From: Candidatus Binatia bacterium | GTDB lineage: Bacteria > Desulfobacterota > Binatia > Bin18 | Direction: 5' to 3' | Length of the DNA stretch: 64,000 bases | Assembly: GCA_022826945.1 (NCBI GenBank) | Contig: JAJDTY010000023.1 | Span: 1 to 64,000 of the forward strand | Shown here: positions 13,129-43,257 of the stretch, one piece after another | Position numbering within the stretch: the first letter of the stretch is position 1 | How the letters are laid out: every line of letters starts with the position of its first letter | Notes under the pieces: model-generated | What the model was told of the DNA's origin: nothing | The model's input: the letters and a program-made list of their open reading frames with translations, nothing else | Database searches by the model: none | Made by a program: the position numbers and the translations under genes

Positions 13129-13918
13129 ATCGGCGCTGGGCCCAAAAAAACCGCCCGGGCGGGAACTCTGGATTCGAGACGAGGCGTGGAGTGCGTTTCC
13201 TGGTCTGATCCATGGTTTTTCCCGTCGCTTACCAGAATCCTTCACCGCAGCTTCATTAGGCGCTTCTTTGGGCGCTCCGGACTGTCTACTCCATACCCTC
13301 AGGCAGGTTCATGGGAATACCATCGTGCATATTGGAGGAGGGGAAGCAGCATCCGGGTCGGAAGCAGATGGAATGCTCACAACCGAACAAAACGTCCTGC
13401 TCGGCATCAAGACTGCGGATTGTGTACCGATTCTCCTCGTTGCTCAACAAAAAATGGGCGAAAGAGGAAACGTGTCCTCCAATAGATACAAAAAGCTGGA
13501 CACATTTCCTCTTCTTGGCGCTCTTCACGCTGGATGGAGAGGTACGCAGAAGGCAATCGCCCTCCGAGCAGTTGAACGATGTGCCGAGCGATGGGACGTT
13601 TCCCCCACTCAGCTCTGGGTCGCCCTGGGTCCATCAATTGGCGGATGCTGTTATCAAGTCGGCTCCGAGATCGGAGAGCCACTCTTTGAGCGCTGGGGAG
13701 ACGGACAGCCGACAACCTGGAATCGGCAGGGAGACAAGGGCTATCTCGACCTGCGGGCGATAAACCGCATGCAGTTGATTCAGGCCGGTGTACTGCAGAC
13801 GCAGATTCACTATGTTGGATCCTGTACATTCTGCCATCCAGATGAGTTTACCTCATACCGCAGAGAAGGGGCTCAAGCCGGTCGCCAGCTCAGCGTCATC
13901 GGCTGGCGTCCAAAGTGA
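13031..13918 (+). CDS. pgeF: PgeF/YfiH-type multicopper-oxidase-like purine nucleoside phosphorylase
   Basis: The product has FPGLIHGFSRR, LRQVHGNTIV, IKTADCVPILL, ALHAGWRGT and CTFCHPDEFTSYRR, the metal-binding Cys/His signatures of the YfiH/PgeF (laccase-domain) family. Members act on purine nucleosides and in peptidoglycan-related editing. The start is uncertain: the first ATG is at 13031, inside the preceding gene, and conserved sequence begins only near 13150. No good ATG or GTG lies closer; a CTG at 13121 directly follows GGAGGAG. About 18-20 extra residues containing RGNVSSNRYKKLDTFPLL interrupt the family between IPILL-type strand and HAGWRG. This insert is exactly a palindromic element (13462-13513). 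Confidence 0.88.
   Translation: MPLDGSSHSICFRKQTKWKRSPLSRREGGVLPKSALGPKKPPGRELWIRDEAWSAFPGLIHGFSRRLPESFTAASLGASLGAPDCLLHTLRQVHGNTIVHIGGGEAASGSEADGMLTTEQNVLLGIKTADCVPILLVAQQKMGERGNVSSNRYKKLDTFPLLGALHAGWRGTQKAIALRAVERCAERWDVSPTQLWVALGPSIGGCCYQVGSEIGEPLFERWGDGQPTTWNRQGDKGYLDLRAINRMQLIQAGVLQTQIHYVGSCTFCHPDEFTSYRREGAQAGRQLSVIGWRPK
13462..13513. repeat. Palindromic element copy A, in frame inside pgeF
   Basis: AAGAGGAAACGTGTCC at 13462-13477 is mirrored by GGACACATTTCCTCTT at 13498-13513 (15 of 16 pairs). The central part is CTCCAATAGATAC-like. The same element occurs in mnmG with the same 52-base length and nearly the same sequence. It encodes RGNVSSN...LDTFPLL and keeps the frame open. Confidence 0.9.
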
Positions 13919-13919
13919 T

Positions 13920-14933
13920 ATGCGCGTTGCTGTTATTGGCGGAGGCGGTTGGGGAACCGCCCTGGCGTGTCTCTTAGACTCGGTCGGGCATGAGGCCCAG
14001 GTGTGGGTCAGGCATGAGGTCTTAGCCCAGAAAATTGAAAGGACACGGGAGAATACGGACTATCTGCCTGGGGTGCGGCTCCCGGAGACACTCGGCTTTA
14101 CCCCAGAATTGTCTACAGCGGTCATCGGCGCTGATGTTCTTGTTATCGCCGTTCCCTCCCATGCGATCCGTTCCATCGCCTCAACGCTGGGCTCCCTGCT
14201 CACGACAACACCGCTACTAGTGAGCACCAGTAAGGGTATTGAGCAGGATTCTCTCCAAACGATGAGTGGGGTGCTTACCGAGGTCCTCCCCCCACGGTTC
14301 GTACACAAGATCACCGTGCTCTCAGGTCCTAGCTTTGCCGTAGAAGTTGCACGTGGTCTTCCGACCGCAGTAACCGTCGCAGCGCAAGATCACGCCATCG
14401 CTCAGAGAGTCCAGACATTGTTCTCAGCTCCGACATTTCGCGTCTACACGACAACGGACGTGATCGGGGCCGAGATTGGCGGTGCGGTCAAGAATGTGAT
14501 TGCCTTGGCCGTCGGAGTGAGTGACGGATTGGGATACGGCTATAACGCACGGGCGGCCTTGATCACGCGAGGTATGGCTGAGGTTGTCCGTTTGGCAACC
14601 CGAATGGGCGCACATCCCCAAACATTATCGGGCCTGTCTGGCATGGGTGACCTTATTCTGACGTGCACGAGTGACCTCAGCCGCAACCGAACTGTGGGTA
14701 TTCGGCTCGGAAGAGGAGAGTCCTTGGAGGCTATTCAGCGGACCATGACAACCGTTGCCGAAGGTATCCGGAACTGCCGCTCGATCCTGGATTTAGCCCG
14801 GCGCCTGGCCGTTGATATGCCTATTGTGGAGCAGATATATGAACTCGTCTATTCCGGTAAACCGCCGACACAGGTGGTCACCGACTTGCTGGCACGCCAG
14901 ACCAAGGCCGAGTTTCCACCAAGAGGAAATTGA
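13920..14933 (+). CDS. gpsA: NAD(P)H-dependent glycerol-3-phosphate dehydrogenase
   Basis: GpsA reduces dihydroxyacetone phosphate to sn-glycerol 3-phosphate for phospholipid synthesis. From the ATG at 13920 the product is 337 residues and begins MRVAVIGGGGWGTALA, the dinucleotide-binding fold. Further signatures are LSGPSFAVEVARGLPTA, the catalytic Lys in GGAVKNVIALAVGVSDGLG, and LSGMGDLILTCTS. The ATG is one base after the pgeF stop codon, so the two are translationally linked. The longer open frame upstream of this ATG is only overlap with pgeF. Confidence 0.96.
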   Translation: MRVAVIGGGGWGTALACLLDSVGHEAQVWVRHEVLAQKIERTRENTDYLPGVRLPETLGFTPELSTAVIGADVLVIAVPSHAIRSIASTLGSLLTTTPLLVSTSKGIEQDSLQTMSGVLTEVLPPRFVHKITVLSGPSFAVEVARGLPTAVTVAAQDHAIAQRVQTLFSAPTFRVYTTTDVIGAEIGGAVKNVIALAVGVSDGLGYGYNARAALITRGMAEVVRLATRMGAHPQTLSGLSGMGDLILTCTSDLSRNRTVGIRLGRGESLEAIQRTMTTVAEGIRNCRSILDLARRLAVDMPIVEQIYELVYSGKPPTQVVTDLLARQTKAEFPPRGN

Positions 14934-14992
14934 CATCTTGGGAGTGGTATGGTGGTATGGATGGCTAACCGAGTACAGCACACTAGGAACGG

Positions 14993-15523
14993 ATGAATAT
15001 CGATGAAAAGGACTTATCAACCAAGCAATACCAGTCGAAAGCGCACGCACGGGTTTCTCGTTCGGATGAGGACAGCCGGGGGTCGTGCGGTTATCAAGCG
15101 GCGGCGCGCGAAAGGGCGCAAACTCCTCAGTGTACGGACACCGCTCAAGCCAGCACGCCGCTAGCTGCTCGCACAGTCCGATACACATTTCCCAAAACGG
15201 CGCGTCTGCTGGTTCGCCGAGAATTTCTCGCCTTCCAAAGACGAGGAGAACGCCGGTATAGTCGCAATTTTATTATTATTACTTCGCCTGCTCGTACCGC
15301 TCGTCCCCGCCTTGGGGTGACGACCTCACGGCGCTATGGCAAGGCAGTCATGCGGAATCACATGAAGAGAAGGTTGCGCGAGTTTTTTCGAGTTCGGCAG
15401 GCATGCATATCCCCACCACGTGATATTCTTATTATTCCCAAATCACGCGCGCAGGAGCTCACTTTTGCCCAGATCGTTACCGAACTAGAGAGGGTGCTTC
15501 CCATTGCTCAACGCATGCAGTGA
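14993..15523 (+). CDS. rnpA: RNase P protein component with N-terminal extension overlapping rpmH
   Basis: RnpA binds RNase P RNA and helps process tRNA 5' ends. The conserved core begins near residue 63 ([20 protein letters not shown]) and includes the family motif [16 protein letters not shown]. In this frame the only ATG, GTG or TTG before the core is the ATG at 14993, just after a TAG at 14984; I checked every codon between. The protein is therefore 176 residues, with about 62 extra N-terminal residues, and its gene contains the whole of rpmH in another frame. AGGAA lies 4-5 bases before the ATG and could serve both genes. Initiation at a non-standard codon near 15170 is the alternative. 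yidD and yidC follow, the usual order. Confidence 0.88.
15003..15164 (+). CDS. rpmH: 50S ribosomal protein L34
   Basis: A short frame of 53 codons encodes [20 protein letters not shown] and a basic remainder with [20 protein letters not shown], the highly conserved L34 sequence. L34 is a small basic protein of the large ribosomal subunit. Its ATG lies 10 bases after the rnpA ATG and its stop at 15162-15164 falls before the conserved rnpA core. The whole gene is thus nested in rnpA in the +1 frame. A separate ribosome site is not evident. Confidence 0.96.
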
Positions 15524-15782
15524 AATCGTTCACTTTTTCGGCTCGTCATGTGCTACGGTAGTCTCTCGGCTAGGCCAACTGGTAGTCGTGGGCGGACTCA
15601 AGAGCTATCGCCTCTTCCTCTCTCCGCTGATCGGTCCGGCCTGTCGCTTCTATCCCAGTTGCTCTCAGTACGCTCTGCACGCCGTACGCAAGCATGGGAC
15701 ACTCAGGGGGCTGATGCTCACGATTCGACGTCTCGCCAAATGTCACCCATGGCACCCAGGCGGAGTCGATCTCGTCCCCTAG
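15504..15782 (+). CDS. yidD: Membrane protein insertion efficiency factor
   Basis: YidD is a small membrane-associated protein that assists YidC-dependent insertion. The core SYRLFLSPLIGPACRFYPSC followed by SQYALHAVRKHG and RLAKCHPWHPGGVDLVP is the complete family signature with its conserved cysteines. The likely start is the TTG at 15504, overlapping the rnpA end; a GTG at 15588 would leave an unusually short N-terminus. It sits between rnpA and yidC as in most bacteria. Confidence 0.95.
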   Translation: MLNACSEIVHFFGSSCATVVSRLGQLVVVGGLKSYRLFLSPLIGPACRFYPSCSQYALHAVRKHGTLRGLMLTIRRLAKCHPWHPGGVDLVP

Positions 15783-15808
15783 CTCAGTTTGCGGACGTTT
15801 GAAGTTCT

Positions 15809-17491
15809 ATGGATAACAAGAGTCTCCTCGCTATTGTCCTCTGTATCCTCATTCTTATCGGGTATCAGTCACTGATCTCCTATCTTTACCCGCCGCCTGA
15901 CCCGCTCCAGCCCCAGACTCAACAGCCGTTCGTCGAATCGGAATCAGCCGCTCCTACGGGTCAACAGACCCCACTCCTTGTGGAACGCCGCCAGAGTGGT
16001 GTTGAAAAAGAAGAACAGACTTCTGTTATGCCCCAGCCCTCCTCAACAGCGTCCCCTGCTCCCGTTGAACAGGACATAACAGTTGAAACAGACGCATATA
16101 TTGCTGTTTTTACTTCTATAGGCGGACGTATCAAAAGCTTCCAACTCAAACAGTATCCAGTGACGCTCAACCCAGATAGCCCGCTGTCGGAAATGGTCAC
16201 CCCCGGAACTTATGGAGAGCTCCCCTTCGTCCTGAGCCTAAGTGGCAAGAATATCACTCTCAGTGATGATACGCTACCGTATACCGTGAAGGGGGTCGCC
16301 GCGGGAGAACGGCTCTTTGTGCCAGCGGAGGATGACAAGGATCTGGTATTCAGAGGGTCGCTGGCGAATGGGACAACCTTTACCAAAACCTTTACGTTTT
16401 CTGGAGAAGGGTACGGCATAGGTCTCAGCGTCGATGTCGCGCATATTCCTTTTACGGCTTCTACTCTCTCTTTGTCCTGGCTCGAAGGCTCACGTTCAGA
16501 AGGGAAATCCGCCTATTATGATGTCTACGGGCCGGTTGCGCTGCTTGGTCGGACCTTTGAATATGAAAACTCCTGGGATTGGGAGACCGGAGACTCATAC
16601 GGGCCGGGGGATATTCGTTGGGCCGGGTTCACAAACAGTTATTTCTTGGCCGGTATGATGCCGCAGGACATCGAAACGGCCCAACTCTTCTTTCGCGATG
16701 AAGACGAGACCCTGGAAACACGCCTCTCGACTCCCTGGAACGGGGAAGCTCTCTCCTACACCCTGTATGTCGGTCCGAAGGATACGGATGCCCTGAATGC
16801 AGTTGATCCGGCCTTTGACCGAGCCATCGACTTTGGCTGGTCCCACTTTATTGCCCGGCCATTAGTCTCGTTGCTGAGACTCCTCTATGAGGTGACCGGG
16901 AACTACGGCATTGCTATTATCTTACTGACTGTCCTGGTTAAACTGGTGTTCTTCCCGCTCAGTAATAAAAGCTTTCGGTCTATGTCGGCGATGAAGAAAC
17001 TCCAGCCGCAGATGGAACGACTCCGTGAGCAATATAAGGACGACCGACAAAAGCTGAACCAGGAAATGATGGAACTGTATAAGCGGTACGAAGTGAATCC
17101 GCTCGGTGGGTGCCTCCCCATGGTCGTACAGCTCCCGGTGTTCATCGGCCTGTACCAGGGGCTTTTGTACGCCATTGAATTGAGACAAGCCCCGTTTTTT
17201 GGCTGGATTGAAGACCTGTCTCAGCCTGACCGCTTGGGCGCGCTGGCCATTCCTTTCGTTGATCCTCCGGGTATCCCGGTACTGACCTTGCTTATGGGGG
17301 GATCGATGGTGATCCAGCAGATGATGATGCCAACCACCGGAGATCCGATCCAGCAGAAGATGATGCTCCTCATGCCGGTCATCTTTACGGTGATGTTCAT
17401 TAATTTTCCAGCCGGACTGGTGCTGTACTGGCTTATCAATAATATCCTGAGTGTCGCTCAGCAGCACTGGTATACAAAAACGTATGGATAA
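15809..17491 (+). CDS. yidC: Membrane protein insertase YidC
   Basis: YidC inserts and folds inner-membrane proteins, alone or with SecYEG. The 560-residue product has an N-terminal membrane helix (LLAIVLCILILIGYQSLISY), a Pro/Gln/Glu-rich linker, a large periplasmic domain as in Gram-negative bacteria, and the conserved C-terminal insertase core. The core includes NYGIAIILLTVLVKLVFFPL, a cytoplasmic coiled hairpin with YKRYEVNPLGGCLPM, and LPVFIGLYQGLLYAI. The stop codon touches a palindromic element (copy D). Confidence 0.96.
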   Translation: MDNKSLLAIVLCILILIGYQSLISYLYPPPDPLQPQTQQPFVESESAAPTGQQTPLLVERRQSGVEKEEQTSVMPQPSSTASPAPVEQDITVETDAYIAVFTSIGGRIKSFQLKQYPVTLNPDSPLSEMVTPGTYGELPFVLSLSGKNITLSDDTLPYTVKGVAAGERLFVPAEDDKDLVFRGSLANGTTFTKTFTFSGEGYGIGLSVDVAHIPFTASTLSLSWLEGSRSEGKSAYYDVYGPVALLGRTFEYENSWDWETGDSYGPGDIRWAGFTNSYFLAGMMPQDIETAQLFFRDEDETLETRLSTPWNGEALSYTLYVGPKDTDALNAVDPAFDRAIDFGWSHFIARPLVSLLRLLYEVTGNYGIAIILLTVLVKLVFFPLSNKSFRSMSAMKKLQPQMERLREQYKDDRQKLNQEMMELYKRYEVNPLGGCLPMVVQLPVFIGLYQGLLYAIELRQAPFFGWIEDLSQPDRLGALAIPFVDPPGIPVLTLLMGGSMVIQQMMMPTTGDPIQQKMMLLMPVIFTVMFINFPAGLVLYWLINNILSVAQQHWYTKTYG

Positions 17492-17546
17492 AAAGCGTAA
17501 ACGCGTTCAGCATCCGCATGTTATTGGAGGATACGTTTACGCTTTT
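17491..17546. repeat. Palindromic element copy D, between yidC and jag
   Basis: AAAAGCGTAAACG at 17491-17503 is mirrored by CGTTTACGCTTTT at 17534-17546. Read on the minus strand the inner part is CGTATCCTCCAATAACATG, matching the GTGTCCTCCAATAGA of copy A, so it is the same family in inverse orientation. It begins on the last base of the yidC stop codon. Confidence 0.85.
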
Positions 17547-17563
17547 CAAAGAGGAAAGACACC

Positions 17564-18358
17564 ATGAGTGCAGTTGAAGCGGAAGGATCGACTATAGAAG
17601 CGGCGGTTGCAGCAGCCCTGACCCAACTCCAAGCGGACAGAGAGCAGGTTGAAATAGAAATCCTCTCTCAGGCCACAAGAGGTTTCCTCGGTATTGGTGG
17701 GAAGAAGGCACGCGTTCGGGCGACGCTGAGAAATCCTGTTTCGGTTCAGGAGCCTGAACCTGCGTCTCCGGCCGGGATTGAGAAATCTTCTCAGAAGAGG
17801 GGGAGAGGAGCACGCCGTCGTGCCCCTTCTGGAGAATCGGCCGCTCAGCCCATGCCCGTTTCCAAGGAGACAGGAGAAAATGCCTGCCAGATACTCTCAG
17901 AAACCCTGCGTCTCATGGGCGTAGAGACCCCGGTCTCGCTCAATGTCCAAGGGGCAGAAGCCGTTATCAATCTTGAGGATACCGTCGATGGCTTACTCAT
18001 TGGGCGGAAGGGGCAGACGCTTGATTCCCTGGAATATCTGCTCAACCGTATGGTCGCCCGTGGAGAAGAGGAAGAGGCGCACCTCATCTTGGACGCCGAG
18101 GGCTACCGTGAACGTCGCCGCCAGAGTCTTGAAAGTCTGGCCCTCCGCTTGAGCGAACGGGCCAAGCGGCGACGAAAAACCGTTACCCTGAACCCGCTGA
18201 GTCCCCGAGACCGTCGCGTCGTCCATTTGGCGCTTGAAGACGACCCACTGGTGGTGACAAAAAGCATGGGTCGTGGGTATTTTCGTCGTCTCTCTATTGT
18301 TCCCGAGGAAGCCGGCAGTCCTCGCCGTGATCGAGATCGGCGGACGGCTCGCGCATGA
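17564..18358 (+). CDS. jag: RNA-binding protein Jag/KhpB
   Basis: The 264-residue product has the three Jag parts: an N-terminal Jag_N domain (ATRGFLGIGGKKARVR at about residues 38-53), a KH domain (DGLLIGRKGQTLDSLEYLL) and a C-terminal R3H domain (LNPLSPRDRRVVHLALEDDP). A basic, low-complexity linker joins the first two. Jag binds RNA and is linked to cell-wall growth and division control in Gram-positive bacteria. It usually follows yidC, as here. A purine-rich AGAGGAAAG precedes the ATG. Confidence 0.94.
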   Translation: MSAVEAEGSTIEAAVAAALTQLQADREQVEIEILSQATRGFLGIGGKKARVRATLRNPVSVQEPEPASPAGIEKSSQKRGRGARRRAPSGESAAQPMPVSKETGENACQILSETLRLMGVETPVSLNVQGAEAVINLEDTVDGLLIGRKGQTLDSLEYLLNRMVARGEEEEAHLILDAEGYRERRRQSLESLALRLSERAKRRRKTVTLNPLSPRDRRVVHLALEDDPLVVTKSMGRGYFRRLSIVPEEAGSPRRDRDRRTARA

Positions 18359-18364
18359 CCTGTT

Positions 18365-19816
18365 GTGTACGAGCATGATACGATTGCCGCTATTGCGACT
18401 CCCCCAGGCCAGGGCGGGATCGCCGTCATCCGAGTCAGTGGCGCGGACGCAGAAAGAATAGTCAGACAGCTCTTTCTCCCCCAAACGTCTTGGGAAAAAC
18501 TTCATTCTCACCATTTCTATCTTGGAAAGGTTCAGGACCAGCCGAACGGCCGACCAATTGATCACGCCGGCTTGATCCTGATGCGCTCCCCACACAGCTA
18601 TACTGGTGAGCATATAGCAGAATTGCACCTCCATGGCGGCAGTTTCCTGACTCGCCGGGTATTGGAGGCGATCCTCAATCAGGGAGTTCGGCTCGCCCAG
18701 CCCGGTGAGTTTACAAAACGCGCCTTTCTCAACGGCCACCTCGATCTCATACAGGCCGAGGCTGTACTCGACCTCATTCATGCGAATAATGAGACGGGTC
18801 TACATCTTGCCTGGGAGGATCTATCAGGCCGACTCTCCCAAACGTACTCGGCCATCCGGGACCGCCTCATTACCCAGACGGCCTACCTGGAAGCTTTTAT
18901 CGATTTCCCTGAAGACGATATCCCTGAACACAGCCAACAGGAGCTCAGCTCAGCCTTCTCTTTAATTCGGAGCGATATAGAGGCACTCGCAGCGACTTTT
19001 TCCCAAGGAAAAGTCTATCGAGACGGGATCAGGACCGCTATTATTGGGAAGCCGAACGTCGGTAAGTCGAGTCTGCTCAACCTGCTGGCAGGTACAGAGA
19101 GAGCCATTGTCACCAAGATTCCTGGCACGACACGGGACATGCTTGAGGAGACCGTGATCGTGAACGGGATTCCCCTCGTCATACGGGATACTGCCGGGAT
19201 TCGTCGGGCAGCGGATGAGATTGAGGAGATCGGCATCGAACGCAGCCTGTCCAGCATTGAACAAGCAGAAATTATTTTAGCACTTTTTGACCTCTCCCGA
19301 CCGTTTGATGCTGATGATGCCCTCATCTGTGAAAAGATCAAAGGCAAGAGGTTTATCCTGGTTGGGAATAAGAGTGACCTCCCTCAGAAATTTGATGTGA
19401 CCGACCTGTTAGACAGCCTGGATACTGAAGCGCAACAAACAGGAAACGTGTCCTCCAAATCACATAAAGCTTTTGATACGTTTCCTCTTCTTCGCACGGC
19501 CGCACTGTATGGTACTGGGATAGACGACTTAGGGGACAGCATACAAGAAGTCGCCCTAGGGAAGAAGCAATCTGGAGGAGAAGGTGAAGGGCCGTATAAG
19601 GGCGTTATGATCACGAAAATACGGCATAAAGTTGCTCTGGAAAAAGCTGCGGAAAGTCTCAAATGTGCAGAGCAGGGGTTGGCGGCAGGCCTCCCCCTTG
19701 ACCTGATCGCTGTTGATCTCCACGCCAGCCTTGACCATATTGGCGCAATAACAGGCCAGGTCAGCAGTGAGGAGATACTCGACCGCGTGTTTCAAGATTT
19801 CTGCATTGGGAAATAG
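18365..19816 (+). CDS. mnmE: tRNA uridine-5-carboxymethylaminomethyl(34) synthesis GTPase
   Basis: MnmE works with MnmG to modify the wobble uridine of several tRNAs. The 483-residue product starts at GTG (MYEHDTIAAIATPPGQGGIA), with the folate-binding N-domain (GEFTKRAFLNGHLDLIQAEA). The G domain has GKPNVGKSSLLN (G1), GTTRD (G2), DTAG (G3) and NKSD (G4), and the protein ends in the conserved FCIGK with the essential Cys. It is some 25-30 residues longer than the E. coli enzyme. Part of this is TGNVSSKSHKAFDTFPLL between G4 and the TAAL (G5) segment, which is palindromic element B. mnmG follows after 10 bases. Confidence 0.96.
   Translation: MYEHDTIAAIATPPGQGGIAVIRVSGADAERIVRQLFLPQTSWEKLHSHHFYLGKVQDQPNGRPIDHAGLILMRSPHSYTGEHIAELHLHGGSFLTRRVLEAILNQGVRLAQPGEFTKRAFLNGHLDLIQAEAVLDLIHANNETGLHLAWEDLSGRLSQTYSAIRDRLITQTAYLEAFIDFPEDDIPEHSQQELSSAFSLIRSDIEALAATFSQGKVYRDGIRTAIIGKPNVGKSSLLNLLAGTERAIVTKIPGTTRDMLEETVIVNGIPLVIRDTAGIRRAADEIEEIGIERSLSSIEQAEIILALFDLSRPFDADDALICEKIKGKRFILVGNKSDLPQKFDVTDLLDSLDTEAQQTGNVSSKSHKAFDTFPLLRTAALYGTGIDDLGDSIQEVALGKKQSGGEGEGPYKGVMITKIRHKVALEKAAESLKCAEQGLAAGLPLDLIAVDLHASLDHIGAITGQVSSEEILDRVFQDFCIGK
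19441..19488. repeat. Palindromic element copy B, in frame inside mnmE
   Basis: AGGAAACGTGTCCTCCAA at 19441-19458 is followed by TGATACGTTTCCTCTT ending near 19489. The arms pair except for a few bases and match copies A and C closely. It encodes GNVSSKSHKAFDTFPL between GTPase motifs G4 and G5 and keeps the frame open. Confidence 0.88.
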
Positions 19817-19826
19817 GTAAAGACCC

Positions 19827-21743
19827 ATGGACTATGATGTTATCGTTGTTGGCGCTGGGCATGCCGGGATCGAGGCGGCATTGGCTGCGGCACGTCTTGG
19901 CAGTAAGACCCTGATGCTGACGCTGAACCTTGATCACATCGGTCAGATGTCATGCAATCCGGCCATTGGAGGGATGGGCAAAAGCCATTTGGTGCGGGAG
20001 ATTGACGCGCTTGGTGGAGAAATGGCCCGCGCCATTGATGAGACGGGCATTCAGTTCCGTGTCTTGAATACGCGCAAGGGGCCAGCCGTTCGCGCAACGC
20101 GCGCGCAAGCAGACAAGGCCCTTTACCGGCAGCGTATGAAGAGAGTGGTGGAAACCACACCTAATCTCACCCTGCGCCAGGGCAGTGTGGAACGCCTCAG
20201 GGTTGAAAGAGGAAACGTGTCCCCCAATAGACATGAGATGCTGGACACGTTTCCTCTTCAGAACAGCCGAATCAGAGGAGTGGTCACTCAGATCGGCGAG
20301 TCCTTCTCAGCACAGACCGTTATTTTGACGACCGGAACCTTTCTCAAGGGTCTCATACACGTTGGCCTCAAAAATTATGCAGCGGGGCGGGCAGGGGACT
20401 TTGCCGTTGAAGGATTAAGCAGCCATCTGAGCGAGCTTGGTTTTCATATTGGCCGGCTCAAAACCGGCACATGTCCGCGATTAGACAAGCGAACCATCAA
20501 TTACGACATTTTGGAGCCACAGTGCGGAGATACCCCTCCACCTGCTTTATCCTTTTCAACGGAGGCAATCGCCCAGGAACAATTGCCGTGTCATATAACG
20601 TATACGAATGAGAAAACGCACCAAACCATTGCCGCAGGACTTGATCGCTCACCCCTGTATTCCGGCGTGATTGAAGGCAGAGGGCCGCGCTATTGTCCCT
20701 CGATTGAGGATAAAGTCATCCGTTTTCAGGAGAAGCCGCGGCACCAGATTTTTCTCGAACCGGAAGGGCGGGACACCGTCGAAGTCTATCCAAACGGCCT
20801 TTCTACAAGTCTGCCACTGGATGTACAGCTCGCCATGGTCCGTTCAATACAAGGGTTGGAGGACGCAGAGATCATGCGTCCCGGCTATGCCATTGAATAT
20901 GACTATGCCGACCCAACCCAACTCACACAGACTTTGGAAACCAAGCTGATATCGGGCCTCTACTTCGCCGGTCAGATTAACGGGACAACGGGATATGAGG
21001 AGGCCGCGGCACAAGGAATAATGGCCGGAATCAACGCGACAATGAGGGTTCGGGGCGAACCCCCGCTCATTTTTTCCCGAGATCAAGCCTATATTGGCGT
21101 TCTCCTAGATGATTTGGTCACGAAAGGAGTAGGAGGAGAGCCCTACCGGATGTTTACTTCTCGTGCTGAGCATCGGCTGTTACTCAGGGAAGACAACGCA
21201 GACGTGAGGCTGAGCGAATTCGGACGGAGAATTGGGCTCATAAATGAAGGATCAGCCGAGCGGACGCTCAGGAAAAAAGAAGAAATTGTCCAGGAAGTTC
21301 GACGTCTGGAGGAGACTGTACTAACCCCAAACGAGGCAGTGAATACCCAACTATCGGCTTTAGGTACGACAAAGATCAAAACGCCGACATCCCTGGCGAA
21401 ATTACTCCGCCGGCCTGAGTTGTCCTTTGGAGATATCCAGTCCATCAGCTTGTCGCCCACCCCCCTCTCCACGGGAGTTGGGGCCGAAGTGGAGATAGAG
21501 GTCAAGTATTCCGGCTACATACGTCGTCAGGAAGAAGGGGTCAACAGGGTCCGGCATATGGAAGAGGCCCTTATTCCGAGTGGAATTGATTATACGGATG
21601 TCCAGGGTCTCTCAAACGAAGTCAAAGAAAAACTCCTAACCCTGCGTCCCCGCTCGCTGGGTCAAGCGTCGCGTATCCCGGGGGTAACGCCCGCGGCCGT
21701 GTCGTTACTGGCCATTCACCTGAAACGCACTGGGGCTGCCTAA
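19827..21743 (+). CDS. mnmG: tRNA uridine-5-carboxymethylaminomethyl(34) synthesis enzyme
   Basis: MnmG is the FAD- and NADH-dependent partner of MnmE. The 638-residue product opens with [19 protein letters not shown], the FAD-binding motif. It has [42 protein letters not shown] and the C-terminal tRNA-binding helices with [17 protein letters not shown]. An extra [20 protein letters not shown] sits between two strands of the NADH/insert region and corresponds to palindromic element C. It stands between mnmE and rsmG, the common order near bacterial origins. Confidence 0.97.
20207..20258. repeat. Palindromic element copy C, in frame inside mnmG
   Basis: AAGAGGAAACGTGTCC at 20207-20222 is mirrored by GGACACGTTTCCTCTT at 20243-20258 with all 16 bases paired. 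The centre is CCCAATAGACATGAGATGCT. Length and frame are the same as copy A. It encodes [17 protein letters not shown]. Confidence 0.92.
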
Positions 21744-21746
21744 TTG

Positions 21747-22415: not shown

Positions 22416-22419
22416 CACA
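22404..22419. promoter_or_regulatory. parS: parS site 1 (ParB-binding), overlapping the rsmG stop
   Basis: TGTTTCACGTGACACA differs from the canonical TGTTTCACGTGAAACA at one base. The rsmG TGA stop lies inside it. ParB dimers nucleate on such sites to organise and segregate the origin region. Confidence 0.9.
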
Positions 22420-22430
22420 TTTGTCCGCCA

Positions 22431-22446: not shown

Positions 22447-22517
22447 TGGCTCAATTCCTTCCCCAACTAACAGAAGATACACGACATTCTCTATAATCTT
22501 CCTTTGTTTCTGGGAAT

Positions 22518-24851: not shown

Positions 24852-24852
24852 T

Positions 24853-32710: not shown

Positions 32711-32716
32711 GAGCCG

Positions 32717-34688: not shown

Positions 34689-34711
34689 GGCAAAAGAGCC
34701 TCTCGTATCGC

Positions 34712-35989: not shown

Positions 35990-35995
35990 CCCTAC

Positions 35996-36655
35996 TTACC
36001 GACTCCGCTCAACTCCGATTTTTTCGCAAAACCGCTCGATCGGACAGAGGCTACATTTGGGAGAGGTTGGGTGACATAGAGTCTGTCCAAATGCGACCAG
36101 CAGGTCGTTATAGCCGATCCAGAAACGCTTGGGCAGACTTTTGCGGAGGGCCATTTCCGTTTGTTCCGGATTTTCCGTTTCAACATAGCCCCAACGGTTC
36201 GAGATGCGGTGAACGTGTGTGTCCACACAGATACCCGGTTTTTGGAAGCCCAAGGTCACAACCAGGTTGGCAGTCTTCCGGCCCACGCCCTTAAAGGTCA
36301 GGAGTTCGTCTATGTCGTCAGGGACTCGCCCCGCATAGACATCGAGTATCCGCTGTGAGACATCGAGCACGGTTTGCGCCTTGGTTTTATAAAACCCGAC
36401 CGGATAAATCGCCTTCTTCACCTGAGCGGGTGTCAGGGTCACCATCTTTTCAGGCGTATCCGCCAGGGCAAACAGCCGCCGGGCCGCCGGACCGGTTGTT
36501 TCATCCTTGGTCCGCAAACTCAGCAGACAGGCGATCAACACCTGATAGGGGTCACGTGAAAACCCCGCCATTTCTGTCACTACAGGCGCGTTCCAACCCT
36601 CAGATACGTGACGCAGGATACCAATAACCCGAGAAATTGTTCTATTCGTCACCAC
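35996..36655 (-). CDS. nth: Endonuclease III (DNA glycosylase/AP lyase)
   Basis: Nth removes oxidised pyrimidines from DNA. From the GTG at 36655, chosen because GGGAGGGG lies 6 bases before it, the product is 219 residues. It has the helix-hairpin-helix LLTFKGVGRKTANLV with catalytic Lys, VDTHVHR with catalytic Asp, and the 4Fe-4S cluster CHPTSPKCSLCPIERFC (C-x6... spacing C-x7-C-x2-C-x5-C counted from this stretch). The open frame extends further upstream but overlaps the methyltransferase gene. It lies between that gene and the AmpG-like gene. Confidence 0.95.
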   Translation of the reverse strand: MVTNRTISRVIGILRHVSEGWNAPVVTEMAGFSRDPYQVLIACLLSLRTKDETTGPAARRLFALADTPEKMVTLTPAQVKKAIYPVGFYKTKAQTVLDVSQRILDVYAGRVPDDIDELLTFKGVGRKTANLVVTLGFQKPGICVDTHVHRISNRWGYVETENPEQTEMALRKSLPKRFWIGYNDLLVAFGQTLCHPTSPKCSLCPIERFCEKIGVERSR

Positions 36656-36672
36656 TTCTTTCCCCTCCCCCT

Positions 36673-37371
36673 CTATCTCTGTATGGTGACAATAGCGACG
36701 GGCAGGGGCAAGTGGTCTTCCCGTTCTCGCACCTCTTCCTGGGTCCACTGCAACCCCGCTCGGTCAAGCTGCTGATAGAAGTCTTGGGTATTTGTCCGTT
36801 TGGCATCGGCAAGGATGGCCCGCCCAGCGGGGGAGAGATGCGTGGCAAGAAAACGCACCAGAGCGGGGAAGGTCGGCCGGTCGTATAAAATCTCCGCGCC
36901 AAGGATGAGCGCGAAATCTGTCTCCAATATATCATGGGTAAAGTCGAGCTGGCGCGCCTCGTATTGCGCACATCCATTTAACCACGCGTTCTCCCGCGCA
37001 AAAGACACCGCGCCAGCTTCTTTGTCGGCAAAGATGACCCGCCCCCTTTTTTGCGCGGCGACGATGCCGGTCAACCCGAGTCCACAGCCGAGATCAAGCA
37101 CGGTTTGGTCTCGTACGTCGATAAAGCTGTCTATATAGCGGGCCAGGGTCAGCGCACCGGTCCACAGGTGCGCCCAGTATGGCGGCTCCTCCGTGTCGTC
37201 GCGCATCAGGGCCTCGCGGTCGACCAGCCGCTCAAGGTCTTTGACGCGGAGCAGGGTCAGCGAGCGTGAGCCTATGACCACCTCCATAGGCTCCGAGGAG
37301 TAAACGTGCCCTCCAACATAAACAAGGCGGTTGGCACGTTGACTCTTTGCCTCATATGCCAAGGCGTTCAC
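36673..37371 (-). CDS. Class I SAM-dependent methyltransferase (lysine methyltransferase-like)
   Basis: The 232-residue product has DTEEPPYWAHLWTGALTLAR just before the SAM-binding VLDLGCGLGLTGIVAA, an arrangement seen in METTL20/ETF-beta-lysine-type and nicotinamide-like methyltransferases. Later motifs are VIFADKE and LILGAEILYDR. Its ATG overlaps the stop of the acyl-CoA dehydrogenase gene, so they are coupled. An ETF-type substrate would make sense beside an acyl-CoA dehydrogenase, but this is inference. Residues 9-25 are encoded by palindromic element F, so the N-terminus is unusual. Confidence 0.75.
   Translation of the reverse strand: MNALAYEAKSQRANRLVYVGGHVYSSEPMEVVIGSRSLTLLRVKDLERLVDREALMRDDTEEPPYWAHLWTGALTLARYIDSFIDVRDQTVLDLGCGLGLTGIVAAQKRGRVIFADKEAGAVSFARENAWLNGCAQYEARQLDFTHDILETDFALILGAEILYDRPTFPALVRFLATHLSPAGRAILADAKRTNTQDFYQQLDRAGLQWTQEEVREREDHLPLPVAIVTIQR
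37298..37345. repeat. Palindromic element copy F, in the 5' end of the methyltransferase gene
   Basis: GAGTAAACGTGCC at 37298-37310 is mirrored by GGCACGTTGACTC at 37333-37345 (12 of 13 pairs). The inner CTCCAACATA matches the CTCCAATAGA of copy A. It is read by the minus-strand gene as SQRANRLVYVGGHVYS, a frame different from copies A-C. Confidence 0.85.
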
Positions 37372-38549: not shown

Positions 38550-38596
38550 GGCAGACTCCCTTCGCAAAGAAACTGTATTGATCCTAGCCCCTTCCG

Positions 38597-40378
38597 CTAC
38601 CCGGCGTCCAGGCCGCGCGGTTGTCCTTCTCCGCGAGGGTCGGAGACTCCGGTTATCAGGCCGGACTCCTGGTCAACATGAATTGCCTGGATGTTGCCAA
38701 AGCGGGAGCGTTTGCCGGGACCCCATTCCACGACCTTCACATGGTGGCCCATAGCCTGAAGCTTTTCGACGAGACCATTCGATTCACTCCCCGTTTGGAC
38801 TTCCAGGTTCAGTCGGTCCGGATACCACTGATGGTGAATGCGCGTGGCAAACATGGCATCGGGCAAGGACATCTGGTAGGCGAGGACATTGAGCAGGACT
38901 TGCAGAACCGAGCTGATAATGCGCGACCCGCCGGGTCCGCCAATCACGAGTTCGACCTTTCCGTCCCGGGTCACAATGGTTGGACTCATGCTGCTCAGCG
39001 GCGTCTTTCGGGGGGCAATAGCATTCGCATCCGTGTTGCCGACCAGGCCAAAGGCGTTGGGATGGTCGGGCTGGGCGTTAAAATCGTCCATCTCGTCGTT
39101 GAGCAGAATACCGGTTCCAGGAACCATGACCCCGCTGCCGAAATACAAATTCACCGTCTGGGTTGTGGCCACAGCGTTACCATCTTTGTCAATGACGGAC
39201 AGATGGGTGGTACTCGTCGACTCTAGCGGCCCCGTTGGTGTCTGTGGAATACCCTGACTGGGCGTGGCTTTGGAGACATCTATCTTCGCCCGTATGTCTT
39301 CGGCGTATGCGGGAGAGATAAGGCGCTCCACAGGAACGAACACAAAATCCGTATCGCCCAAGTAGCGAGCTCTGTCGCGAAAGGCTCTGCGCAGGGTTTC
39401 TGTCAGGATATGCGTGGTGCCGGGAGTTTGGAAACCGAGTTTCTGCAAAGGAAATCCCGACAAGACATTCAACATCTGAACGAGCAGAACGCCTCCAGAG
39501 CTCGGTGGCGGCATAGAATAGATACGCCTCCCCTGGAAACTTCCCGTCACCGGCGCACGGTCAATCACGGTATACTGATCCAAATCTTCCTGGGTCAGCA
39601 AGCCGCCTATCCGTTGCATTTCCGCAACAATTGCCTCTGCCACCCGACCGGTATAAAAGGCGGCTTTACCGTCCTTGGCAATGGCGCGCAGGGTGTTGGC
39701 TAGATCTCTTTGGACAAAGAGGTCGTCCTGTTTGAGCGGCTGATCGTTCCGATAATACACCGCCCGAGTTGCGTCGGATTCCCCCAAGACCTCAGCTCGG
39801 TAGGCTATGGCGCGGGCCAAATGCGGATAGACCGGAAATCCCTCGTCTGCCAGACGAATGGCGGGCTGCATGACCTCTTCGAGCGATAAACTGCCGTATC
39901 GCTGCTGGACCTCCACCAGTCCTGCAACGATACCTGGTACGGCGACGGCCAGCGGTCCGGTCCGGCTCAGGGAGGAAACGGCTTCTCCGTCCCGGACGAA
40001 CATGTCTCGGGTGGCTTTGAGCGGGGCCCGTTCGCGGAAATCAAGCGCTAGGGTTTTGTGCTCCTTCGCCAGATAGAGCAGCAGAAAACCACCGCCGCCT
40101 ATTCCGGTGGACTGTGGCCGGAGCACGCTGATGGCAAAGGATGTCGCAACCGCAGCATCAACCGCATTGCCTCCTCCACGGAGCATGGCGACGCCGGCTT
40201 CACTCGCCTGCGCGTTCGCGGCAGCGGCCATGCCGTGCTTGGAGGTTGAGACGAAGGGAGAGCTTTCTCCAAAGCCGGGCGCATCCGCGCCATACACCAT
40301 TCCGGTAAAAGGGATGAATACGACCAGCAATAAGAGAATCTTCTTTCCTATTCGGACAATGCGAGCCTTCAGCATCAT
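38597..40378 (-). CDS. ggt: Gamma-glutamyltransferase (glutathione hydrolase)
   Basis: GGT cleaves glutathione and other gamma-glutamyl compounds in the periplasm and matures by self-cleavage. The 593-residue product has a signal peptide (ILLLLVVFIPFTGMVYGADA), RGGGNAVDAAVATSFAISVL and GGGGFLLLY. TTHLSVIDKDGNAVATT, whose first Thr is the expected nucleophile, follows, and then PTIVTRDGKVELVIGGPGGS. Length matches the family. It is not obviously in an operon. Confidence 0.95.
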   Translation of the reverse strand: MMLKARIVRIGKKILLLLVVFIPFTGMVYGADAPGFGESSPFVSTSKHGMAAAANAQASEAGVAMLRGGGNAVDAAVATSFAISVLRPQSTGIGGGGFLLLYLAKEHKTLALDFRERAPLKATRDMFVRDGEAVSSLSRTGPLAVAVPGIVAGLVEVQQRYGSLSLEEVMQPAIRLADEGFPVYPHLARAIAYRAEVLGESDATRAVYYRNDQPLKQDDLFVQRDLANTLRAIAKDGKAAFYTGRVAEAIVAEMQRIGGLLTQEDLDQYTVIDRAPVTGSFQGRRIYSMPPPSSGGVLLVQMLNVLSGFPLQKLGFQTPGTTHILTETLRRAFRDRARYLGDTDFVFVPVERLISPAYAEDIRAKIDVSKATPSQGIPQTPTGPLESTSTTHLSVIDKDGNAVATTQTVNLYFGSGVMVPGTGILLNDEMDDFNAQPDHPNAFGLVGNTDANAIAPRKTPLSSMSPTIVTRDGKVELVIGGPGGSRIISSVLQVLLNVLAYQMSLPDAMFATRIHHQWYPDRLNLEVQTGSESNGLVEKLQAMGHHVKVVEWGPGKRSRFGNIQAIHVDQESGLITGVSDPRGEGQPRGLDAG

Positions 40379-40523
40379 ATTTTCCTCATGCAGACAGGAA
40401 CGAATATAAGCGAGCCAGAGAAGCGCGACAATCCCTCTGGTCGATCAGATTGACTTCAAAAGACGGGGTTGGTACGGTTTCCGCTAGGCCCTTCGACAGG
40501 CTCAGGACAAGGAGGAGGACGCC

Positions 40524-40961
40524 ATGGCTTCGGTGAACAAAGCGATTATTGTTGGAAATCTTGGCAGAGACCCGGAGGTACGCTACACGCAGAGTGGGCA
40601 GGCCATGGCACGCTTCACCGTGGCCACGACCGATACCTGGATGGACCGGGACAATAGCCGTCAGGAACGCACGGAGTGGCACAACATCGTGGTCTGGGGC
40701 AAGCAGGCCGAGACGTGCGGCCAATATCTGTCCAAAGGTCGTCAGGTCTATATCGAAGGGCGTATCCAGACACGAAAATTTGAGGACAGGGAAGGCAAAG
40801 AGCGGTATTTTACTGAGATCAACGCCCAGCAAGTGACGTTCCTCGGTGGCCGTGACGGCGGGGGCGCACGTTCGGGCCAGTCGTTTGATGACGAGCCAAG
40901 CGGCGGGTTTGATGATGTTGGGGCGGGCTCAGTTCCCCCGGATGATGATGTGCCGTTCTAG
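40524..40961 (+). CDS. ssb: Single-stranded DNA-binding protein
   Basis: SSB coats single-stranded DNA in replication and repair. The 145-residue product has the OB fold ([59 protein letters not shown]). A Gly/Asp-rich linker leads to the acidic DDDVPF tip that recruits partner proteins. AGGAGGAGG precedes the ATG. It is a single plus-strand gene between two minus-strand units. Confidence 0.96.
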
Positions 40962-40970
40962 CTTGGTAAG

Positions 40971-41819
40971 TTACACCGCCTCCGTTGCAACCTCTGCGTA
41001 GCCCGGCCTGATGACGGCCCGTCCATTAGGGTTGACCGTCTCATATCGATAAGAGCCTGAATTCGTATCCGGCCATATAGCCGTGGTAATCGTCTGACCG
41101 GGGAGTACCGGTCGGGCGAATCCGGCGCTGAGTCGCCTGAGACGGCGAGGGTCCTTCTCGCAGACACTATCGATAAGAGCTTTTGATGCAAACGCCAGGG
41201 TGCACAGGCCGTGGACGATAATGCCCGGCAGTCCTGCCAGCTTGGCGACGTTTTCATCGATGTGAATGGGATTGCGATCTCCTGACGCTTTCGCGTAGCG
41301 AAATGTTTGATCCGCGTCGATGGTTTGGGAGACGCGATGCAGGGGGTCGCTATCGGGAGTCTCGTTGGCCGCGGTTCTCTTCCGAGGGCGACGTCCTTGG
41401 TCTCGGATAAAGGCGGTAAACGTGATGCGCTGAACAGTCTCTCCCGTCTGATTACAGCAGTGGAGATCAACGGCCAGGGACTCCCCCCCAGGCTGTTCTT
41501 CAATGGCGACAATTTGCGCTGTACTGTTGATCGTGTCTCCCGGGACAATCGGACGGAGGAAGCGCATGTCTTGCCAGCTGTGAACCAAACGGAGGACGTC
41601 GACATTCAGCTCGGTGTCAGTCACGACCATCATCAGCGAGAGCCAGCTTGCCACGGCACCAAACAGCGGTGGCGCAATAATGCCTTCGGGTCTGTCTACG
41701 TCAAAAAACCAAGCGTTATCCTCATTGTACGCGTGTGCATAGGCCATGGTTGCCTCAGCGCTGACGGCATATGACTGCGGGTCGTACTCTTTGCCAAGCA
41801 GGCTCCTATTGAGTCCCAT
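40971..41819 (-). CDS. MaoC-family double hot-dog hydratase
   Basis: From the ATG at 41819 the product is 282 residues. The N-terminal half has the FAS1/MaoC dehydratase-N fold (AYAHAYNEDNAWFFD). The C-terminal half has the MaoC hydratase motif FRYAKASGDRNPIHIDENVA followed by GIIVHGLCTLAF, with the catalytic Asp and His. Such proteins hydrate enoyl-CoA thioesters. It starts 4 bases after the radC stop and is probably translated from the same message. The substrate is unknown. Confidence 0.83.
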   Translation of the reverse strand: MGLNRSLLGKEYDPQSYAVSAEATMAYAHAYNEDNAWFFDVDRPEGIIAPPLFGAVASWLSLMMVVTDTELNVDVLRLVHSWQDMRFLRPIVPGDTINSTAQIVAIEEQPGGESLAVDLHCCNQTGETVQRITFTAFIRDQGRRPRKRTAANETPDSDPLHRVSQTIDADQTFRYAKASGDRNPIHIDENVAKLAGLPGIIVHGLCTLAFASKALIDSVCEKDPRRLRRLSAGFARPVLPGQTITTAIWPDTNSGSYRYETVNPNGRAVIRPGYAEVATEAV

Positions 41820-41823
41820 GGCC

Positions 41824-42516
41824 TCAATCCCAGTACCCGTCATCGACAAAACTAATATAGCGGCCTTTGCCAATAATCAGGTGGTCCAGAATGGGGACAC
41901 CCATAACCTCTCCGACCTCCCTGAGGCGTTGGGTAATCTTCAGGTCTTCCTGACTCGGTATCGGATCGCCACTGGGGTGGTTATGCACGAGGATAGCCGC
42001 GGCGGCTGACTCGCGGATGATGGGCTGAAAAACCTCCCGTGGGTGGACTAAGGAGGAGGTCAAAGACCCCTCAGAGACACGGACGTCTTTGAGTTTTCTG
42101 TTCTTGGCGTCCAGGAGAAGCACATGAAACTCTTCTTTTTTAAGACTGCCGAGTTGTTCACGGTAGTGATTGAAGACATCAAGGCTGGAACTAAACAACT
42201 CGCCCCGACGAATTTCTTCTTGTGAGAAACGCTTCGCAATCTCCAAAGAGGCTTTTATCTGCGCGGCCTTTGCCGGCCCGACCCCTTTGACCTCACACAG
42301 TTCGGCCGTGCTCGCTTCTTCCAGTTTTCGGAATGAGTCACCAAAACGGGAGACAAGCGCCCGACCGTGGTCAAGCGCACTCTGTCCAGAGCTTGCGTCA
42401 CCGGTACGGAGGATGATGGCGAGCAATTCTGCATTGGAAAGAGTTGCCGCTCCGTGCTCGATCAGCTTCTCTCGCGGCCGGTCAGATTCGGGCCAAGTGC
42501 GGATGGGCGACGCCAT
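41824..42516 (-). CDS. radC: RadC-family JAMM-domain protein
   Basis: From the ATG at 42516 the product is 230 residues. It has an N-terminal UPF0758 region (WPESDRPREKLIEHGAATLS), a helix-hairpin-helix (LCEVKGVGPAKAAQIKAS) and a JAMM metalloprotease-like motif (ILVHNHPSGDPIPSQED). RadC was once thought to be a repair protein; its role is still unclear. The reading frame extends upstream in a Lys/Arg-rich stretch but conserved sequence starts at this ATG. Confidence 0.93.
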   Translation of the reverse strand: MASPIRTWPESDRPREKLIEHGAATLSNAELLAIILRTGDASSGQSALDHGRALVSRFGDSFRKLEEASTAELCEVKGVGPAKAAQIKASLEIAKRFSQEEIRRGELFSSSLDVFNHYREQLGSLKKEEFHVLLLDAKNRKLKDVRVSEGSLTSSLVHPREVFQPIIRESAAAAILVHNHPSGDPIPSQEDLKITQRLREVGEVMGVPILDHLIIGKGRYISFVDDGYWD

Positions 42517-42547
42517 GACTGAGGACTCACCACAATTGCAGGCTTTC

Positions 42548-42886
42548 TTATTTTTTCTTCTTTTTTTTACCGGCGGAGCGTCGGGACGTCTTGTTTTTTT
42601 TCGCGAGCAAACGGTCAAGTTTCATATTGAGGTTGATCAGGTTGCCTTGGACTTCTTCAACTCTTTCAACCAGATGCTCGTAGTCCGTCCTAGAGGGTAT
42701 ATTCAGCAGGGAGAGTATCGCCGCCATATTGCGGGCAACTTCTTCCCTTGCCTGGGCAGCATCCCGAAACGTCTTCTCCATAACGTCGTGCATGCAAACT
42801 TGTGCGAGGAGGTCCTTTACAAGATTGGCAAAGTTCTCTCTATTTGCCTCGTAGAGCTGTTCGAAAACTGTTTTCTCTTCATCCAT
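42548..42886 (-). CDS. Phasin-like coiled-coil protein with poly-lysine tail
   Basis: The 112-residue product is almost all helix: an acidic N-terminus (MDEEKTVFEQLYEANRENFA), an amphipathic stretch and NIPSRTDYEHLVERVEEVQG leading to a coiled coil ending LNMKLDRLLA. The tail is KKNKTSRR...GKKKKKK. The NxPSRxDxxxLxERVE pattern resembles phasins or PHA-synthase-associated proteins, which coat polyhydroxyalkanoate granules. No pha genes are in the window. The basic tail could bind DNA or membrane. It probably starts the radC-MaoC unit. The function is not certain. Confidence 0.5.
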   Translation of the reverse strand: MDEEKTVFEQLYEANRENFANLVKDLLAQVCMHDVMEKTFRDAAQAREEVARNMAAILSLLNIPSRTDYEHLVERVEEVQGNLINLNMKLDRLLAKKNKTSRRSAGKKKKKK

Positions 42887-42954
42887 ACTCTGGGAGTCAG
42901 ATGTTGCTCGGGAAAATCCGATAGAAACGGCTTAGTCAGAAATAGGGAGATCGT

Positions 42955-43209
42955 GTGGATTTCGCAGTCTTTCTCGGGTATTTCACCGGCTTACGTTTCC
43001 TCGACGAAACCATTGACCTTCCGGCGCTTGTTGGGACGACGCTCTTCATTCACTTTCTTGACGGGATTGCCTGCGGCCTCATGGCCAAGAGGAGTCACCG
43101 CCCGCTCTATCCCTGGGTTGTGAGTGGATTGCTGTTTGGCATATGGGCCCTCACACTGCTCCTTCTCCTGGTGATACAGGGAAGAGGAAGAGCAGGCGAG
43201 AAAGAGTAA
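42955..43209 (+). CDS. Small integral membrane protein of unknown function
   Basis: A GTG at 42955 opens 84 codons with three hydrophobic segments (FAVFLGYFTGLRFL, TTLFIHFLDGIACGLMA, WVVSGLLFGIWALTLLLLLV) and a basic-acidic tail ending RAGEKE. The stop codon TAA lies within the first arm of palindromic element E, so the C-terminal end of the protein was probably set by the element's insertion. No family is recognised. It is transcribed divergently from the phasin-like gene. Confidence 0.5.
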   Translation: MDFAVFLGYFTGLRFLDETIDLPALVGTTLFIHFLDGIACGLMAKRSHRPLYPWVVSGLLFGIWALTLLLLLVIQGRGRAGEKE

Positions 43210-43257
43210 ACGTGCCCTTCAATTCCAAGAGGCAGAAGTCAGGCACGTTTACTCTTT
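43201..43257. repeat. Palindromic element copy E, at a gene end
   Basis: AAAGAGTAAACGTGCC at 43201-43216 is a perfect 16-base mirror of GGCACGTTTACTCTTT at 43242-43257. It provides the stop codon of the small membrane gene and ends 37 bases before the prxU stop on the opposite strand. As RNA it would fold into a stable hairpin and could act as a bidirectional 3' end. Confidence 0.92.

Follow-up and report, generated by a model that had tools for sequence, protein, structure and literature searches.

A Probably Mobile Palindromic Element Lying Between Genes and in Frame Within Genes of a Candidatus Binatia Bacterium

Six Copies of a Short Palindrome at One Locus

A 64,000-nucleotide stretch of DNA from a Candidatus Binatia bacterium (GenBank assembly GCA_022826945.1, contig JAJDTY010000023.1, positions 1 to 64,000; hereafter “the window,” always meaning this whole stretch) carries six copies of a short palindromic element, each 54-57 bp long (Table 1). 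Three of them lie in frame in the conserved genes pgeF, mnmE and mnmG, and the other three (at 37295, at 43201 and between yidC and jag) were treated as non-coding, the copy at 37295 because its length varies among genomes (54, 54, 55 and 61 bp in the four genomes bearing it) and because its site is empty in genome G003. The copy at 43201 is filled in all five genomes compared. The name yidC comes from an initial annotation of the window together with the position of the gene, without a family search.

The initial annotation had counted six copies, and all six were recovered in the window by a covariance model built on 41 copies from the same genome, these six included: they scored 53-75 bits (E 2e-12 or better), and the next-best place in the window had an E value of 0.11. 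The exact two-arm pattern was found at 14 places in the genome vs. none for a reversed control; a single arm (GGRCACGTTT, with at most one mismatch) matched the window no more often than chance would allow (11 matches vs. 7.25 expected, with 12 of 100 shuffles reaching 11).

The ends of the element are sharp (AAAGAG...CTCTTT). Its 17-bp arms are inverted repeats, reading AAAGAG, then G or T, then AAACGTGTCC on the left and GGACACGTTT, then C or A, then CTCTTT on the right, and between them lies a loop of some 20 nt whose edges are commonly conserved (TCCAATA...AGATGCT in the alignment of 41 copies). Within this alignment the arms pair in 92.5% of 697 cells. There are two main subtypes at position 7, T-A (T-type, 22 of 41 copies) and G-C (G-type, 14 of 41), which means that both arms change together; overall, two-sided changes affect 22 arm cells vs. 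a shuffled mean of 9.1. The commonest length in the host genome is 54 bp (58 of 99 copies), with a range of 43-58 bp.

Some copies depart from this plan. Five in the host genome (C78:37620, C78:44436, C78:46109, C67:115925 and C17:236451) form a subfamily with a loop like TTCCTCGATCGGCAGATGCG, distinct from the main one. Two others (L003 and L022, at about 1485-1570) have common flanks, TCCCCTC..GGAGG before and GTGCC..CGTAGCGG after, as if they lay inside a larger repeat. Strong single arms lacking a partner, probably truncated copies, were seen on host contig C67 at about 69380 and 117564 (L267, L269) and in the stretch from G004, and two copies in G006 (L300, L298) have shrunk to 22 bp (AAAGAGGAAACGTGTCCTCTTY), each apparently by deletion between TCCTC repeats.

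Table 1. Positions of the palindromic element and of the probable replication origin in the window.
Feature	Positions	Strand	Location and remarks
Palindromic element, G-type, 54 bp	13461..13514	+	In frame in pgeF (open reading frame 13007-13918); peptide type ERGNVSSNRYKKLDTFPLL
Palindromic element, T-type	17492..17545	-	Between yidC (15809-17491) and jag (17564-18358)
Palindromic element, G-type	19437..19490	+	In frame in mnmE (18365-19816)
Palindromic element, G-type	20206..20259	+	In frame in mnmG (19827-21743)
Palindromic element, T-type	37295..37348	+	Over 5' end of called methyltransferase open reading frame (36673-37371, -)
Palindromic element, T-type, 57 bp	43201..43257	+	Between radC (41824-42618, -) and gyrA (43768-46266, -)
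Probable oriC	49750..50250	.	Densest 500 bp of DnaA-box-like 9-mers (9 sites), between dnaN (48820-49971) and dnaA (50252-51595)

Filled and Empty Sites in Sister Species

Syntenic stretches were compared among five genomes (90-180 kb each), to which short segments from G005 and G002 were added for a total of 827 kb; the species share 87-93% nucleotide identity. A two-arm scan of these seven genomes yielded 107 copies (0 in one base-shuffled version of each), and the 106 with enough flank fell into 53 site groups. Thirty-nine groups include an empty relative, and in 25 of them the flanks join with a gap of 0, where the least gap per group was counted and values from -12 to +6 were admitted (empty alleles with larger shifts, e.g., -15 to -21 in group 35, were left out). 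The copies in pgeF, mnmE and mnmG are all 54-bp (18-codon) insertions with at least one relative joining at gap 0: the pgeF site is empty in this way in G003 and G006, the mnmG site in G001, G003 and G006, and the mnmE site in G005. The mnmE site is also empty in G001, G003 and G006 with six extra bases (GCATTC), so that its empty allele exists in two forms; these bases could be ancestral or an excision scar. The yidC-jag copy is absent in G005 (gap -6), and its orientation differs between species.

Target-site duplications, which the initial annotation had proposed to look for, were not seen: no duplication of fixed length occurs in the 39 site groups with an empty relative, and left and right flanks of 94 host copies agree over 1-5 bases at about chance level. 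The element enters many chromosomal sites as a unit, mostly without duplication or loss of target bases. Between congeners, 82 of 241 unique indels of at least 18 bp carry one of its arms, and the remaining 159 include a few additional fragments of the element. No second family of mobile palindromes was noticed among those 159 with a palindrome test so crude that it scored 0 even for pieces of the element.

These alleles bear directly on whether the palindrome is simply a functional hairpin (a terminator, RNA element or protein domain) that is kept by selection and does not move. Such a role would fit the two-sided changes in the arms and the one intergenic site (group 5) that is filled in all five genomes compared, but the element comes and goes among sister species in unrelated genes, and the empty sites refute this as a full explanation; in addition, several frames and both orientations are occupied, and an Rfam scan of the window returned no family at the gathering threshold. 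We therefore give an immobile hairpin hardly any credence.

Copies Inside Genes

With the empty allele as the reference, open reading frames (ORFs) of at least 200 codons receive 22 of the 39 insertions. Their net length is divisible by three in 19 cases, and 15 keep the ORF at least as long (14 of these 15 being multiples of three). Most genic insertions thus have a length divisible by three and do not close the frame, which is possible since an element of the usual 54 bp amounts to 18 codons and most G-type frames are stop-free. Across the host genome 26 of 99 copies have an open frame running through them and 73 do not; coding context was judged from open frames and from the ORFs of empty alleles. 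A codon-usage classifier had been dropped as too harsh, since it called 87 of the 99 copies non-coding, the mnmG copy included.

Sixteen site groups chosen as open were inspected, and in 13 of them every copy has the same sense as its gene (the choice of ORF was mechanical, and in group 29 the other strand was taken for G001). The commonest reading frame of the element yields RGNVSS...DTFPL (the initial annotation gave RGNVSS...LDTFPLL-type peptides), and other frames give KRxxVL...AGHVSS or KEETCP...; the mixture of inverted copies and alternate frames reported there was likewise observed. G-type copies are enriched in genes (12 G-type and 2 T-type, vs. 9 and 13 elsewhere; Fisher p = 0.014, with 3 C copies left out). 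Selection accounts for part of this bias, since on either strand of a T-type copy one frame contains a TAA; frame +0 is open in 9 of 63 T-type vs. 23 of 27 G-type copies.

The initial annotation had placed half of the window copies inside essential genes. Three of the six are indeed in frame in conserved proteins, but “essential” does not suit pgeF, mnmE and mnmG, which are conserved but generally dispensable. The usually essential genes murF and lnt do host the element elsewhere in the same genome. Nine further genes of this genome, taken from those with open-frame copies (26 in all), were put through family searches, which confirmed MurF, RimO, Lnt, a DUF4147/MOFRL protein, a cytochrome c, an APH-type phosphotransferase, UvrC and a response regulator, and gave no match for the ninth. 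The insert lies inside the family match in RimO, Lnt, MurF and the DUF4147 protein; in UvrC (residues 65-82) and the response regulator (residues 36-53) it precedes the first family match and may be upstream of the true start. Candidate hosts named from reading the translations are MgtE, PstA, a TonB receptor and a tetratricopeptide lipoprotein. The tetratricopeptide-like lipoprotein gene has sites in groups 30, 43 and 44, with one copy in G004, two in G001 and none in G000 (L269, G000:C67 118.9-119.6 kb).

The inserts are not common to all orthologs of these proteins, being missing both from sister species and from the best PDB orthologs, which show an 18-residue gap for MnmG and PgeF and two gaps totalling 17 residues for MnmE. 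Structural modelling, also suggested at the outset, put the MnmG insert in a low-confidence loop: in an AlphaFold2 model from 27 sequences (mean predicted local distance difference test score, pLDDT, 88.1), residues 131-143 fall below pLDDT 50 and occupy a beta-hairpin turn between strands 121-127 and 147-154.

A Loose, Symmetric Target

Insertion sites share a weak preference, BGCNNN^NNNGCV, whose two halves mirror each other across the point of insertion. At 97 host sites (194 half-site positions), A is avoided at -6 (9 vs. 41 expected), while G at -5 (97 of 194 vs. 56 expected) and C at -4 (88 of 194 vs. 56) are in excess, each mirrored on the right (p = 6.5e-11, 4.1e-10 and 7.1e-7 for positions 6, 5 and 4, which were picked post hoc on this set). 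Independent confirmation came from 56 sites of other genomes, none of them common to the host (p = 1.9e-8, 8e-5 and 3.6e-5). Copies crossed by an open frame (26) show the preference and so do those lacking one (73), as do G- and T-types alike (weakest at position 4 in G-type, p = 0.04), and an outward shift of 12-50 bp abolishes it. Twenty-five empty alleles already display it (p = 1.3e-4, 2.2e-4 and 8.9e-3), which means that the element does not bring the motif with it. A self-pairing, palindromic target was considered and rejected, as left and right half-sites match no more than shuffles do; this points to protein contacts. We read the target as one contacted by a two-fold symmetric protein, with the join at the dyad.

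Inversion in Place and Discordant Presence

Copies at the same site may face opposite ways. Seven of the 31 site groups with recognisably homologous copies (groups 1, 4, 14, 17, 22, 24 and 27) contain an in-place inversion; the case of group 4 is weak (loop identity 0.65-0.70), and in group 24 the copy of G003 matches that of G006 from end to end without a difference once one is turned. None of these seven is among the open coding groups inspected.

Several sites do not follow the relationships of their hosts. Groups 26-29 and 33 are filled in G004 and G001 and empty in G000, the closest relative of G004, and are also empty in G003 and G006 where data exist (none in G006 for group 29, none in G003 for groups 28, 29 and 33). 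The site of group 7 has a copy in G000 and G006 and is empty in G004 and G001. The flanks next to the site follow species relations in groups 27 and 33, which argues against imported DNA there, and are ambiguous within 50 bp in groups 7, 26, 28 and 29. The discordant pattern suggests that the element may be lost exactly.

Distribution and Clustering Around the Replication Origin

The genome-wide search called for in the initial annotation turned up many further copies: the covariance model finds at least 101 distinct ones in the 4.7-Mb host genome, a lower bound since scoring covered 150 of 1034 candidates (99 of the 101 places were read). Among 58 genomes (the host and its relatives, with at most 99 candidates scored in each), matches were obtained in nine, namely every one of the seven genomes of genus g1 (G000-G006) and the two of its sister genus g2 (G007, G012), and in none of the seven other members of the family or the 42 of the class. 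Only the host genome itself matched among 395 genomes of the phylum (at least 14 of which are among the 42 class genomes), and no copy was present at the 36 loci searched out of 80 named MnmG loci. Arm counts (up to two mismatches), less those of a reversed-pattern control and halved, put the number of copies at about 70-170 per g1 genome and, for g2, at about 60 in one genome and about 25 in the other, with the seven other family genomes at background. Carrier genomes measure 4.3-5.2 Mb. The host is an uncultured lineage; among the best 80 of at least 591 MnmG matches, the nearest named relatives are metagenome-assembled genomes labelled Deltaproteobacteria (65% identity) and uncultured bacterium (63%), both of which adjoin the window in a one-gene MnmG tree (93 rows, no Alphaproteobacteria). 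We noticed no paper on the element within open-licence PubMed Central.

Within carrier chromosomes the copies are far from evenly spread. In G006, a single contig whose oriC was placed by the cluster of DnaA boxes adjoining dnaA, 90 distinct places (from 134 matches, scoring having covered 150 of 1023 candidates) show strong clustering (R = 0.576, p ~1e-13), 59 of them in the origin-proximal quarter and 8 in the terminus-proximal quarter. G001 agrees (28 places, p = 7e-4), and in the host the contig bearing oriC holds 24 of 101 copies vs. 3.7 expected. The window itself includes a replication-origin neighbourhood, where gyrA, gyrB, dnaN and dnaA follow one another on the minus strand (43768-51595).

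Clustering of this kind would also suit a scenario without a dedicated enzyme, in which end joining or template switching passively captures hairpin DNA where forks have broken or stalled. Passive capture would leave no target duplication, and template switching, which is discussed for the coding palindromes of nematomorph mitochondria in a passage of PMC6649704, could yield both matched arms and inversion. It would not be expected to produce exact ends or a reproducible symmetric preference at +/-4 to 6, and we rate it as improbable.

Search for a Mobilising Enzyme

No enzyme was identified among the four families tested in response to the initial suggestion that a transposase be sought. Matches to the Y1 transposase (PF01797) occur in four of the nine carriers and in all seven non-carriers of the family, to IS110 in two of nine and five of seven, to serine recombinases in four of nine and six of seven, and to reverse transcriptases in six of nine and six of seven, so that each of these is missing from some carriers and none is restricted to carriers; no search covered tyrosine recombinases or DDE families. 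PF01797 does not track the element: it is without a match in G000, G003, G005, G006 and G007, and G006 is a single contig, 98% complete.

This distribution matters for single-strand transposition of the type associated with repetitive extragenic palindromes (REPs) and their RAYT transposases or with IS200/IS605, in which a Y1 (HUH) transposase peels a hairpin from one strand and pastes it without duplication. The hairpin form of the element, the lack of target duplication and the crowding of copies near the origin all suit it, but five of nine carriers have no Y1_Tnp match although every non-carrier in the family has one. Y1 targets are asymmetric tetranucleotides, and the target here is symmetric; nor is there any bias of orientation relative to the forks in G006 (51 copies with and 39 against, p = 0.25). 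Single-strand transposition is, in our estimation, unlikely to explain the element.

We think equally little of an ordinary miniature inverted-repeat transposable element (MITE) moved by a DDE transposase from an insertion sequence whose ends match its own. The 17-bp terminal inverted repeats, the small size and the high copy number all suit such a MITE, but DDE transposases leave short target duplications, and no duplication of fixed length is found here. No convincing long version with these arms was present in 797 kb of five genomes (the DDE families themselves were not searched): arms 60-4000 bp apart gave two pairs only, each combining a weak arm with the arm of a known short copy, and neither was supported.

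Discussion

Taken as a whole, the element is best explained, and we believe probably so, as a non-autonomous mobile palindrome inserted with zero stagger by a symmetric enzyme and tolerated in genes. Exact ends, palindromic arms, absence of duplication, a symmetric target and both orientations per site together fit an enzyme dimer that acts alike on both ends. Such a dimeric enzyme would bind the arms and join both target strands without stagger; the same activity, or exchange between the arms, would turn the element round in place and may also remove it exactly. The host presumably tolerates the added peptide as a flexible surface loop. The suggestion in the initial annotation of a mobile, protein-tolerated repeat resembling Rickettsia palindromic elements (RPEs) in another host is supported by the sister species without inserts and by the many copies; the symmetry of the target, inversion in place and clustering at the origin go beyond that annotation.

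A number of observations weigh against this explanation. The gap is not zero in 14 of the 39 groups (-12 in one, -7 in one, -6 in two, -2 in one, -1 in four, +1 in four and +4 in one), which may reflect divergence of the flanks or ambiguity of the boundary. Two of five covariation measures of the arms are within the range of shuffles (reached by 23 and 51 of 500). In the target, host half-sites at position 4 agree less often than in shuffles (16 of 97 vs. a mean of 29.8), and a weaker excess of A at -2 in the host set and of C at -3 in the independent set were each unrepeated in the other. Several of the 22 ORFs receiving insertions are probably spurious antisense ORFs; multiples of three are the commonest length outside genes too (58 of 99 copies in the host genome measure 54 bp), which leaves the length test weak by itself (14 of 15 vs. 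14 of 24, Fisher p = 0.028). That MnmG, MnmE and PgeF work with their inserts is suggested by the intact genes, and better survival of old copies in conserved regions may contribute to the clustering at the origin. Finally, the zero-stagger step is deduced from the anatomy of the insertions and its enzyme is hypothetical. We know of no class of zero-stagger symmetric integrase that could be named here, and a lost or divergent enzyme would be compatible with the negative searches, the genomes being present-day and partly draft.

A bolder and more doubtful proposal, which we offer only tentatively, is that the element represents a new mode of transposition, in which a palindrome of 18-codon, mostly stop-free design is inserted, turned and exactly removed near the origin by a zero-stagger symmetric enzyme. 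If so, groups 26-29 and 33 would be exact excisions.

The probable mobility of the palindrome has consequences of two kinds. The insertion step is open to direct test through the filled and empty alleles found across the genus, the in-place inversions and a target signature that was replicated. For the proteins, the element offers a route for the bulk addition of short peptides to core enzymes such as MnmG, MnmE, MurF, RimO and Lnt, and sister species provide natural before/after pairs for MnmG, MnmE and MurF.

Comparison With Known Systems

REPs and REPINs with their RAYTs are, like the element, short, high-copy, non-autonomous palindromes that form hairpins, but REPs are mostly extragenic, whereas here the target is symmetric, many insertions are coding and five of nine carriers lack a Y1 match. 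Correia/NEMIS and ERIC repeats are small and non-autonomous too, and are sometimes fused in frame to genes (passages of PMC2229807 and PMC10969869); a table of PMC2229807 lists target duplications and TA termini for them, neither of which is seen here. The coding palindromes of nematomorph mitochondria resemble the element in lying inside genes and in keeping their arms matched, but they are perfect inverted repeats of up to 284 bp, and the passages of PMC6649704 at hand describe no mobile family of shared sequence among them.

It is mainly in Rickettsia and Wolbachia that palindromes often lying in frame within protein genes have been described. As portrayed in excerpts of PMC3767692, PMC10969869 and PMC2229807, they are, like the element, palindromic repeats found both between genes and in frame in protein genes, and some RPE families favour genes. 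They are about 100-150 bp long, in contrast to the usual 54 bp (range 43-58 bp) here, and their target duplication is marked “?” in the table of PMC2229807. According to one abstract (PMC3767692) the insert occupies a single shared locus in every rickettsial ortholog, whereas filled and empty alleles coexist here within one genus; RPE arms are said to lose identity over time (a passage of PMC6649704), whereas the arms change together here. The host is outside the Rickettsiales, no such label occurring among the best 80 of at least 591 MnmG matches. Because its length and host are unlike the RPE description, we do not file the element as an RPE, a distinction drawn from descriptions and not from sequences; what further sets it apart from those descriptions is its symmetric target, its inversion in place, its clustering around the origin and the different lineage in which it resides.

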